Source of the DNA: Albidovulum sediminis
Lineage (GTDB): Bacteria; Pseudomonadota; Alphaproteobacteria; Rhodobacterales; Rhodobacteraceae
Length of the DNA stretch: 64,000 nt
Assembly: GCF_025380365.1 (NCBI RefSeq)
Contig: NZ_JAOCQF010000001.1
Coordinates: forward strand, 186,001-250,000
Direction of reading: 5' to 3'
A program made the translations under genes and the position numbers. Shown in pieces: positions 7,750 to 26,815 of the stretch. Under the pieces are notes generated by a model. The model saw nothing but the letters and a program-made list of their open reading frames with translations, had not been told where the DNA came from and did no database searches. Every line of letters starts with the position of its first letter. Within the stretch, counting starts at the first letter, position 1.

Positions 7750-8877
7750 ATGGATGACAAAGCCGCCCCCTTCGAGATCTTCCTGGCCGCCCTTCCGGGG
7801 TTGGAGCCGCTTCTGGCGGCGGAGGCGCGCGAGGCGGGCTTTGCCGGGGTGGAGGAGGGCGCCGGCGGGGTCACCTGCCGCGGCGGCTGGGCAGAGGTCT
7901 GGCGCGCGAACCTGACGCTCAGGGGGGCAAGCCGGGTGCTGGTCAGGATCGGCGGCTTCCGGGCGTTTCACCTGGCGCAGCTCGACAAGCGGGCGCGGCG
8001 GTTTCCCTGGGGCGATTTCCTGCGGCCGGACGTGCCGGTGAAGGTCGAGGCGACGTGCCGGCGATCGAAGATCTACCACGCCGGCGCTGCGGCGCAGCGG
8101 ATCGCGCGCGCCCTTGCCGAGACGCTGGGCGCGCCCGAGGCCACGGGGGAGGAGGCCGCGGTCCGGCTGATGGCGCGAATCGAGGACGACCTGGTGACCT
8201 TTTCGCTCGACACGTCGGGCGAGCCCTTGCACCGGCGCGGCCACAAGGTGGCGGTGAACAAGGCGCCGCTGCGCGAGACGATGGCGGCGATGTTCCTGCG
8301 CGACTGCGGCTATGCCGGGGCGGAGCCGGTCCTTGACCCGATGTGCGGCTCGGGCACCTTCGTGATCGAGGCGGCGGAGATCGCGGCGGGCCTGATGCCC
8401 GGTCGCAGTCGTGCCTTTGCGTTCGAAAGCCTTGCGGGTTTCGACGCGGGCGCCTGGGCGGCGATGAAGGGCGCGTTCCCCGTCCGCGTTCCCGCGCAGC
8501 GCTTTTACGGCTCGGACCGGGATGCGGGCGCGGTGCGGATGTCGCGCGAGAATGCCGAGCGGGCCGGGGTGGGGGAGTGGTGCGCCTTCTCCTGCCATGC
8601 GGTCGGCGAGCTTGCCCGGCCGGAGGGCCCGCCCGGCCTGGTCATGGTCAATCCGCCCTACGGGGCGCGGATCGGCGGAAACCGCAACCTTCTCTTCGGG
8701 CTTTACGCGGCACTCGGCGGGGTGCTCAAGGATCGGTTCGCCGGCTGGCGCGTCGGGCTTGTAACCTCGGATGCGGGGCTGGCGAAGGCCACTGGCCTGC
8801 CGTTCGGCGCGCCGGGCGCCGAGATCGACCACGGTGGCATCCGGGTGCGACTCTGGAAGGCCGGGCCGCTGCGCTGA
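7750..8877 (+). CDS. THUMP-domain RNA methyltransferase, RlmL-like
   Basis: 375 aa class I SAM-dependent methyltransferase of the RlmL N-terminal/YcbY type, predicted to make N2-methylguanosine in 23S rRNA. The N-terminal ferredoxin-like/THUMP region (residues ~5-160) includes YHAGAAAQRIARAL and FSLDTSGEPLHRRGHK. The catalytic domain has DPMCGSGTFVIEAA (~195) and the target motif NPPYG (~300). The start is the ATG at 7750; the longer in-frame extension overlaps hisF antisense and looks non-coding. It interrupts the his cluster on the opposite strand. Confidence 0.88.
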   Translation: MDDKAAPFEIFLAALPGLEPLLAAEAREAGFAGVEEGAGGVTCRGGWAEVWRANLTLRGASRVLVRIGGFRAFHLAQLDKRARRFPWGDFLRPDVPVKVEATCRRSKIYHAGAAAQRIARALAETLGAPEATGEEAAVRLMARIEDDLVTFSLDTSGEPLHRRGHKVAVNKAPLRETMAAMFLRDCGYAGAEPVLDPMCGSGTFVIEAAEIAAGLMPGRSRAFAFESLAGFDAGAWAAMKGAFPVRVPAQRFYGSDRDAGAVRMSRENAERAGVGEWCAFSCHAVGELARPEGPPGLVMVNPPYGARIGGNRNLLFGLYAALGGVLKDRFAGWRVGLVTSDAGLAKATGLPFGAPGAEIDHGGIRVRLWKAGPLR

Positions 8878-24155: not shown

Positions 24156-24240
24156 TCCGCCTTCTTCGTTGCCTTGAACACGCCCGCCGGGCGCGCGCCG
24201 GCCTGCGCGGGCTGTCGATGCCTGTCCCGCTGCAAGGAAA

Positions 24241-24280
24241 AAAGAAAACGGCGGCCCCTGGGAGGAGGAGGGACCGCCGT
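24241..24280 (-). terminator. CcsR-like hairpin 8, also the array terminator
   Basis: 7-bp stem ACGGCGG/CCGCCGT (24248-24254 with 24274-24280), extendable by four pairs inside, with a loop bearing CCTCCTCCC. It is followed on the minus strand by TTTCTTTTTT, giving a Rho-independent terminator for the whole transcript. Confidence 0.82.
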
Positions 24281-24284
24281 CATG

Positions 24285-24318
24285 ACGTGGACCCCAGGGA
24301 GGAGGAGGGGGCCCGCGT
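24285..24318 (-). ncRNA. CcsR-like hairpin 7
   Basis: 11-position stem with one mismatch and one G-U pair (24285-24295 with 24308-24318) and a 12-nt loop CTCCTCCTCCCT. Confidence 0.75.
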
Positions 24319-24333
24319 TGGGTCGTGAAGGGT

Positions 24334-24369
24334 CGGTGGCGGCTCAGGGAGGAGGAGGAGCCGCCACCG
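24334..24369 (-). ncRNA. CcsR-like hairpin 6
   Basis: Perfect 12-bp stem CGGTGGCGGCTC/GAGCCGCCACCG (24334-24345 with 24358-24369) and a 12-nt loop CTCCTCCTCCCT. Confidence 0.82.
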
Positions 24370-24376
24370 TCTTCAC

Positions 24377-24414
24377 TGCGGCGCACCCAAGGGAGGAGGA
24401 GGGGCGCGCACGCA
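24377..24414 (-). ncRNA. CcsR-like hairpin 5
   Basis: 12-bp stem with a single bulged base (24377-24388 with 24402-24414) and a 13-nt loop bearing CCTCCTCCC. Confidence 0.75.
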
Positions 24415-24470
24415 TGCCTTTGGGCCATCCGGGCCCGAAATCTGTCCGGCGTCCTGCCGGGAAGGGAAGT

Positions 24471-24506
24471 CGCGGCGGTGGCAGGGAGGAGGAAGCCACC
24501 GCCGCG
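24471..24506 (-). ncRNA. CcsR-like hairpin 4
   Basis: Perfect 12-bp stem CGCGGCGGTGGC/GCCACCGCCGCG (24471-24482 with 24495-24506) and a 12-nt loop bearing CCTCCTCCC. It is followed by a 92-nt step to the next unit, which holds only weak hairpins without the motif, possibly a decayed unit. Confidence 0.82.
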
Positions 24507-24514
24507 CTTCGGTC

Positions 24515-24546
24515 CGGAACCCTCAGGGAGGGAGGAGGGGGTTCCG
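24515..24546 (-). ncRNA. CcsR-like hairpin 3
   Basis: Perfect 8-bp stem CGGAACCC/GGGTTCCG and a 16-nt loop containing CCTCCTCCCTCCC, an extended form of the motif. Confidence 0.78.
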
Positions 24547-24554
24547 TCGGTCTC

Positions 24555-24588
24555 GCGGCGACATCAGGGAGGAGGAAGATGCCGCCGC
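24555..24588 (-). ncRNA. CcsR-like hairpin 2
   Basis: 11-position stem (24555-24565 with 24578-24588), all paired in the minus-strand RNA if one G-U pair is counted. The 12-nt loop bears CCTCCTCCC. Confidence 0.8.
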
Positions 24589-24592
24589 TGGT

Positions 24593-24620
24593 CCCGCGCC
24601 AGGGAGGAGGAAGGCGCGGG
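24593..24620 (-). ncRNA. CcsR-like hairpin 1
   Basis: 8-bp stem (24613-24620 with 24593-24600, CCCGCGCC family) and a 12-nt loop bearing CCTCCTCCC. Closest to the DUF1127 stop. Confidence 0.8.
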
Positions 24621-24627
24621 GAATTCC

Positions 24628-24843
24628 TTACTTGCCGTAGGCCGCCTCGATCGAGATCGAGTCGATCATCGACCGGTTGATGCCCAGGTCGCTGAGGTCG
24701 CGGTCGGTCAGGGCGTTCAGTTCCTTGACCGTCTGGCGGTAAACCTTGTAGCGGCTGCGGGCATCCTGCAGGTTGCGGAGGAAAGCGCCGATCCGGTCGG
24801 TCAGCCCCAGTTCAACTCCACTCAGCATCGATACGTTTGCCAT
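24628..24843 (-). CDS. ccaF1: DUF1127 small basic protein (CcaF1-like)
   Basis: 71 aa. The C-terminal half is a DUF1127 domain: YRQTVKELNALTDRDLSDLG followed by INRSMIDSISIEAAYG. AAGGTG lies about 7 nt before the ATG. The gene immediately precedes the eight-hairpin array and ends 7 nt before it, the same arrangement as Rhodobacter sphaeroides RSP_6037 (CcaF1), which I recall as a small RNA-binding protein involved in CcsR maturation and stress-linked control of C1 metabolism. Assignment rests on the domain plus this context. Confidence 0.87.
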   Translation of the reverse strand: MANVSMLSGVELGLTDRIGAFLRNLQDARSRYKVYRQTVKELNALTDRDLSDLGINRSMIDSISIEAAYGK

Positions 24844-24883: not shown

Positions 24884-25113
24884 CTGCGTCAAGCGCCTTG
24901 TTCTGCGCTGTTGGGGCTAACATGGGCCGGATGCTGCGACTGCACAATAGGTCGCGCAGTCAATGCTGCCATGCAGAAAATGCATAACCCATTCTGACCT
25001 GTTTTCGGGCATTTGCCTTGTCCTTGCGTCATTTTTTAGGCTTGGTGCGGATGCGCCCCTTGCCGTTGTCATGCAACCGTCACAACTCTGGCGCCAAAGC
25101 GAAGGAGCCTGCG

Positions 25114-26555: not shown

Positions 26556-26760
26556 TGAAGACGGGCTCTAAGGGCACAAAGACCCAAACGGCAGAAGTCA
26601 GGTTTCATACAGGCACCCGCTTTCATCGAACCAAGAGATCCGGCGCTCATGCGAGCAGACATCCCCCCAGGTGGCAGGGCGACCGGACAGACCCAGTAAT
26701 GGGAACGAGGGCGGCGGATCGGGCAGTGGCAGCAGCCCGATCCGCCGTTGTCGTTCCGGG
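26556..26760 (+). ncRNA. mraZ leader, UpsM-like sRNA candidate
   Basis: Predicted to start just after TATACG and to end at a long hairpin at 26702-26757: GGAACGA/TCGTTCC (7 bp), a 4x4 internal loop, then the perfect 12-bp stem GGCGGATCGGGC/GCCCGATCCGCC with a 10-nt loop. A second stem CGGGGCC/GGCCCCG follows (26757-26783). Predicted length is about 205 nt, close to UpsM, which I recall as a roughly 206-nt RNA from the R. sphaeroides mraZ 5' UTR. No U-rich tract, and identity by sequence is untested. Confidence 0.48.
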
Positions 26761-26815
26761 GCCGGCCCGTCGGCGCGGCCCCGGATGTGAGGGACAGGTA
26801 CGGGAGCGCGGGCCG

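Follow-up and report, generated by a model that had tools for sequence, protein, structure and literature searches.

We found that the window (the whole 64-kb stretch of DNA analysed) contains a DUF1127 gene followed by an array of hairpins with a constant loop, and several lines of evidence support its assignment to the ccaF1-CcsR (cuckoo, "CIN1") type of locus. The array is a common four-pair form of a stress operon known from this family, and is not unusually large; the window itself is ordinary. It had been described beforehand as a locus of the CcsR/cuckoo type that follows a CcaF1-like DUF1127 gene, and the PF06568 match, the conserved loop, the compensated stems and the terminator agree with that description. 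Directly observed here are the gene, the hairpins, their covariation, the pairing pattern, the synteny and the conservation across the family. Very probably the window carries a ccaF1-ccsR operon, that is, one that would produce a stress transcript with a 3' UTR that is cut into four two-hairpin sRNAs, the loops of which block Shine-Dalgarno sites.

The DUF1127 gene is directly upstream of the array and on the same strand (Table 1). Its product matched PF06568 with a score of 47.9 bits (cutoff 23.3). The stop codon, TAA, is at 24630-24628 and the stem of hairpin 1 begins at 24620 (minus strand), so the earlier placement of the array, 7 nt past the stop codon and on the same strand, was exact. 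The array runs from 24620 to 24247 (minus strand) with eight motif hairpins, and the U-tract extends down to 24238. Hairpin 8 is the stem of a Rho-independent terminator and is followed by the U-tract TTTTCTTTTTT (24248-24238, after unit 8); the array thus closes in a U-tract terminator, as had been noticed. When the window was searched with Rfam 15 at gathering score, the array was unmatched and the sole match was a tRNA elsewhere.

Table 1. Features of the locus and their positions in the window. Weak and strong hairpins are denoted A and B.
Feature	Positions	Strand	Basis
Candidate promoter TTG-N18-CCCATGTT, putatively RpoH-type by resemblance	24919-24947	minus	conserved block
DUF1127 gene, 71 aa, CcaF1-like	24628-24843	minus	ORF; Pfam PF06568
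Hairpin 1, weak (A), loop TTCCTCCTCCCT	24593-24620	minus	fold; compensatory changes in helix 1
Hairpin 2, strong (B)	24555-24588	minus	fold, covariation
Hairpin 3, weak (A), extended loop CCTCCTCCCTCCCTGA	24515-24546	minus	fold, covariation
Hairpin 4, strong (B)	24471-24506	minus	fold, covariation
Two plain hairpins lacking the motif, separating pair 2 from pair 3	24422-24460 (24460-24446, 24436-24422)	minus	fold
Hairpin 5, weak (A)	24381-24409	minus	fold, covariation
Hairpin 6, strong (B), lengthened by an outer GUGAAG/CUUCAC stem	24334-24369	minus	fold, covariation
Hairpin 7, weak (A)	24285-24318	minus	fold, covariation
Hairpin 8, strong (B), doubles as terminator stem	24247-24281	minus	fold, covariation
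U-tract of the terminator, TTTTCTTTTTT	24238-24248	minus	read from sequence

The array has eight minus-strand copies of CCTCCTCCC, with starts at 24610, 24575, 24538, 24492, 24399, 24355, 24305 and 24268. A ninth, lone copy is outside the array at 8147. All nine copies in the 64-kb window are on the minus strand; the number expected by chance is ~0.9 per 64 kb, counting both strands. Of the nine copies of the ten-base form, CCTCCTCCCT, in the whole genome, seven are within the array. All eight copies of CCTCCTCCC sit in hairpin loop regions of the predicted fold, and the motif is fully unpaired in seven of the eight. In unit 3, the predicted fold has one base of the motif paired, and the loop is longer (CCTCCTCCCTCCCTGA). 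The fold of the array had an energy of -210.8 kcal/mol, compared to -155.8 kcal/mol (sd 5.8) for shuffled sequences (z = -9.46). The window array has CCUCCUCCC in the loops of neighbouring hairpins with variable stems. The preliminary description of eight hairpins with diverged stems and a constant loop is borne out by this z-score, by the eight copies of CCTCCTCCC and by compensatory changes in the stems.

We evaluated the stems in two ways. We scored the two arms of each stem against each other and against arms swapped in from other units. In the window, units scored 22-35 with their own arms, compared to a mean of 15.4 for swapped arms; 6 of 56 swaps reached or exceeded the lowest own score. 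For the 1095 units of 137 arrays, the median arm score was 25 for own arms and 13 for swapped arms, and half of the own arms were above the 95th percentile of the swaps. We also aligned six orthologous arrays: that of the window, one from each of two named Defluviimonas loci, two from genomes of the same genus, and one other. Both sides had changed in 31 of 109 pairs, compared to 12.8 in shuffled alignments and 4-10 with slid partners. Pairing was possible in 89.3% of cells, compared to 36-49% with slid partners, a measure on which the structure is favoured, since it was taken from the window itself. Unaided, RNAalifold gave 28 of 91 pairs changed on both sides. The stems covary and are kept by compensation (the 31 of 109 pairs). 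Judged from the arm scores and the alignment, the stems of the array are real. The Defluviimonas loci L040 and L041, both in the alignment, have the two plain hairpins between units 4 and 5 as well (helices 6 and 7), and so does G009.

The hairpins are arranged in pairs. Stem scores in the window, for units 1 to 8, were 24, 29, 22, 35, 22, 34, 23 and 33. That is, weak stems (8-11 bp, scores 22-24) alternate with strong stems (11-13 bp, scores 29-35) to give four pairs. We compared arrays with at least five units (117 arrays) to shuffled versions of themselves. The lag-1 autocorrelation of stem scores was -0.43, compared to -0.13 (sd 0.027) after shuffling, and none of 2000 shuffles reached the observed value; at lag 2 it was +0.13, compared to -0.11. 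Linkers differed too: with neighbours >100 nt apart and score differences <5 excluded, the median was 7 nt from weak to strong (n = 419) and 16 nt from strong to weak (n = 342). The likeness of stem flanks was 0.575, 0.559 and 0.537 at lags 2, 4 and 6 (108 arrays; 93 at lag 6), and was on average lower at odd lags (0.497, 0.531 and 0.506 at lags 1, 3 and 5; 108 arrays). This signal was weak in the window, with 0.52 at lag 2 and 0.50 at lag 1. Alternation of weak and strong was strict in only 13 of 25 eight-unit arrays, and some arrays have threefold repeats (for example G146, G240, G316 and G045). These results show that the repeat unit of the arrays is a weak-strong pair, with exceptions.

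We also considered A+U-rich linkers between pairs as sites for RNase E. This idea was not borne out: the A+U fraction was 0.436 between pairs and 0.481 within pairs, with no enrichment between pairs, so composition lends no support to cutting there. The sequence AGAAT was more common in linkers between pairs (32 of 342) than within pairs (1 of 419).

The size of the window array is common in the family. The 137 arrays are those of the window, of three named loci and of 133 stretches, which were fetched from 131 genomes and picked because they have three or more well-spaced motifs. G373 and G337 each occur twice among them, L042 seems to be the same genome as L049, and loci L043-L048, with no motif, were excluded. 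The number of hairpins ranged from 3 to 26 with a mode of 8 (25 arrays); 70 of 137 arrays had at least eight and 45 had more than eight. The longest had 26 (G146), 20 (G267) and 17 (G045). We therefore rejected eight as a record size. The preliminary description had taken the octet to be exceptional and to imply a larger capacity for processing and dosage; this did not hold up, since eight is the mode of the 137 arrays and an array of 14 is found in G046. Nor did the copy-number ranking across Rhodobacteraceae that had been suggested, and that we did by motif pattern, set the window apart: eight is the commonest size among arrays of at least three. The array in G146 (L052, minus strand of its contig) has 26 copies of CCTCCTCCC; most of it consists of a repeating trimer, and units at lag 3 are up to 100% identical. 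Among the matches listed in our literature search, no title or abstract opening mentions longer arrays.

A three-motif pattern matched at least 132 of 395 genomes of the family, which is a lower bound because G046 was without a match to it. A two-motif (spaced) pattern had matches in 304 of the 395 genomes; by genus, 272 of 351 had a match. As a control we ran the patterns backward and counted matches in 13 of 395 genomes (three-motif) and 56 of 395 (two-motif; 55 of these 56 also match the pattern itself). The genomes examined further among those gained by the two-motif pattern were G046, G356 and G375.

The window resembles the ccaF1-CcsR1-4 locus of Rhodobacter (Cereibacter) sphaeroides (RSP_6037, RSs0680a-d). 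Both have a DUF1127 gene directly upstream of the array and on the same strand, CCUCCUCCC loops, a terminator at the end, and a conserved promoter block. The CcaF1 protein is given in print as 71 aa, also (PMC10253847). The preliminary description stated that R. sphaeroides carries four units. This is right for sRNAs, since four CcsR sRNAs are reported, co-transcribed with ccaF1 and matured by RNase E (PMC10253847), but not for hairpins, since the RS0680a transcript is reported to have two stem loops with the motif in each (PMC3927594). Two stem loops in RS0680a and four sRNAs mean that "four" counts sRNAs; the hairpins would number about eight. The abstract of Billenkamp 2015 is said to give two stem loops for all four CcsR sRNAs.

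We infer that genome G046 is C. sphaeroides from its 98% identity over 3092 bases to a C. sphaeroides KD131 plasmid, and the species label rests on that plasmid identity. Its DUF1127 protein and that of the window are 56% identical over residues 12-70. G046 (L209) has seven pairs of motif hairpins, 14 in all, and we read five of the pairs as near-identical; its last hairpin lacks the full motif. Seven pairs are more than the four sRNAs named in print (CcsR1-4). The window differs from G046 in the sequences of its stems and in having 8 hairpins (4 pairs) and not 14 (7 pairs). G375, of the same genus as G046, has eight motif hairpins.

Cuckoo or CIN1 loci of alphaproteobacteria, as reportedly defined by Reinkensmeier and Giegerich in 2015, consist of hairpins side by side, alike in their CCUCCUCCC loops and variable in their stems, and their consensus is said to be 2 to 4 hairpins per RNA. 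Unlike that consensus, the window has eight hairpins in one 3' UTR; it agrees if each pair is one RNA. The rhizobial sRNA NfeR1 (alpha-r14) is reported to have an ultraconserved CCUCCUCCC on variable stems, to silence ntrB at its ribosome-binding site, and to have three hairpins and its own RpoD-type promoter signature (PMC10746234). The window is like NfeR1 in having CCUCCUCCC on variable stems and unlike it in having a DUF1127 gene and eight hairpins. We therefore rejected a stand-alone three-hairpin sRNA of the NfeR1 type for this locus.

The gene neighbourhood is conserved. A DUF1127-like ORF was present within 700 nt upstream in 132 of 137 arrays, using a profile derived from matches within the same 137 stretches, and was absent from G109, G364, G020, G275 and G301. 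The median distance from its stop codon to the first motif was 22 nt (137 arrays). Of the 137 stretches, 116 have an Mrp gene upstream and 88 have PcrA downstream; at least one of the two was present in 132, and five had neither. Some of these misses may have been cut off, because the stretches are only a few kb. In the window, the PcrA/UvrD and Mrp domains were confirmed with Pfam.

The promoter of ccaF1-CcsR in R. sphaeroides is reported to be of the RpoHI/RpoHII type (PMC10253847, PMC3320616). A block in the promoter region is conserved in seven aligned loci, including the window, with the end CATGTT in six and CATTTT in one; it is also present in the Cereibacter-type genomes G046 and G375. 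Of the 137 arrays, 26 have the motif as spelled on their upstream side; in the downstream control it was found for 1 of 137. We infer, by analogy, that the window promoter is RpoH-type; the class assignment uses what we take to be the RpoH-type consensus. We did not find CATGTT in the stretches upstream of two plasmid loci (L201 and L202, described below). Upstream of the candidate promoter, at 24966-24976 (minus strand), is a conserved palindrome-like sequence, CTGC-ATG-GCAG, which varies in some relatives and which presumably resembles a PhaR-type site.

We propose the following sequence of events, by analogy to R. sphaeroides. Stress would activate the putative RpoH-type promoter and give a single transcript, which codes for the RNA-binding DUF1127 protein and has a long, structured 3' UTR. 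With help from the DUF1127 protein, RNase E would cut this UTR into four sRNAs, each with an A and a B hairpin; the lengths of the linkers suggest that the cuts fall between pairs. The loops would expose CCUCCUCCC, which could pair with GGAGG-type Shine-Dalgarno sequences of target mRNAs and block translation, as in R. sphaeroides and rhizobia. The last strong hairpin probably also terminates transcription. The CcsR RNAs of R. sphaeroides are reported to be processed by RNase E and then PNPase (PMC7866481). Also reported are CcaF1-dependent maturation, turnover by PNPase, dependence on Hfq, and an influence on pyruvate dehydrogenase and C1 metabolism (PMC10253847, PMC8625941, PMC7866481, PMC8307010). 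The ~40-nt single-hairpin species that had been predicted for each unit seem less likely than two-hairpin species of ~65-90 nt.

We searched the genome for possible targets. The full 9-nt complement of the motif, GGGAGGAGG, was found 3-10 nt before an ATG at 11 sites, compared to 1 site for the reversed control; this excess is weak evidence, because Shine-Dalgarno sites are purine-rich anyway. One of the 11 sites is the opposite strand of the array itself. At four of the other ten, the candidate target ORFs were recognised with Pfam as an NhaA-type antiporter, a DUF2189 protein, a protein that matches Peptidase_S15 marginally and an ABC permease. ORFs at the remaining six sites are mostly short or doubtful.

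There are other ways to account for the array. It might act uncut, as a multivalent sponge within the 3' UTR, titrating either ribosome-binding sites or one of the proteins DUF1127 and Hfq, and the stronger the more hairpins it has. In keeping with this, arrays have anywhere from 3 to 26 hairpins but one fixed loop motif, and eight similar loops per RNA are suited to titration. We nevertheless think it unlikely: the CcsR RNAs of R. sphaeroides are reported to be released by RNase E and to target another mRNA (PMC10253847, PMC8307010, PMC7866481), and the longer linkers between pairs suit cutting. A DUF1127 gene nearly always upstream (132 of 137) and a last hairpin that is strong (at or above the array median in 120 of 137, with T4 following in 89 of 137) would also fit hairpins that merely stabilise or terminate the 3' end of the DUF1127 mRNA, with the loop kept for binding a protein and not for pairing with mRNAs. 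Against this, the exact 9-nt anti-Shine-Dalgarno motif is retained over very different stems, and targets of the CcsR and NfeR1 loops have been published (PMC8307010, PMC10746234); the probability of this account seems to us very small.

We give almost no credence to a protein-coding explanation, in which the stretch encodes a protein (for example, the 168-aa ORF at 24174-24680, plus strand) and the repeats are repeats of codons. The stems are preserved through compensatory changes between orthologous arrays and there are single-base gaps in the aligned linkers, even though open frames do span the array on both strands. On the covariation of the stems we rejected coding as the explanation of the array.

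The family picture is more interesting than the window: weak-strong pairs, amplification by pairs or by threes up to 26 hairpins, and copies on plasmids. Arrays in relatives have 3 to 26 hairpins, recent near-identical copies among them. Tentatively, and with rather more doubt than confidence, we suggest that the locus serves as a dosage device that can be amplified. The copied unit would be the A-B pair (a trimer in some lineages), in which the weak hairpin opens to the target and the strong hairpin guards the 3' end after cutting, or terminates. Tandem copying would tune the amount of anti-Shine-Dalgarno RNA per stress transcript, and the scaffold would outlive loss of the loops. Genomes with 20-26 hairpins would lend themselves to tests of dosage effects in a natural sRNA array.

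G356 (L194:1700-2090), from the genus of the window, has eight hairpins at the same positions and five full motifs left. By our reading, three hairpins are without the full motif, including that of the terminator. From this genome, it seems that the hairpin scaffold outlasts the loops.

DUF1127-CcsR-type loci are also present on plasmids. One, on pCBA4604-01 of Paracoccus jeotgali (L201:2516-3062), has seven full motifs and one variant loop in an eight-hairpin layout that resembles that of the window. Another, on pAK2 of Paracoccus sp. AK26 (L202:2459-2930), has four full motifs. Two other plasmid stretches with DUF1127 genes had no motif (L203) or a lone motif (L204).

Elsewhere in the window, at 26705-26754 (plus strand), is a very stable hairpin (z = -8.3 when folded as 26690-26790). 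It is upstream of a likely mraZ gene, which we recognised by eye.
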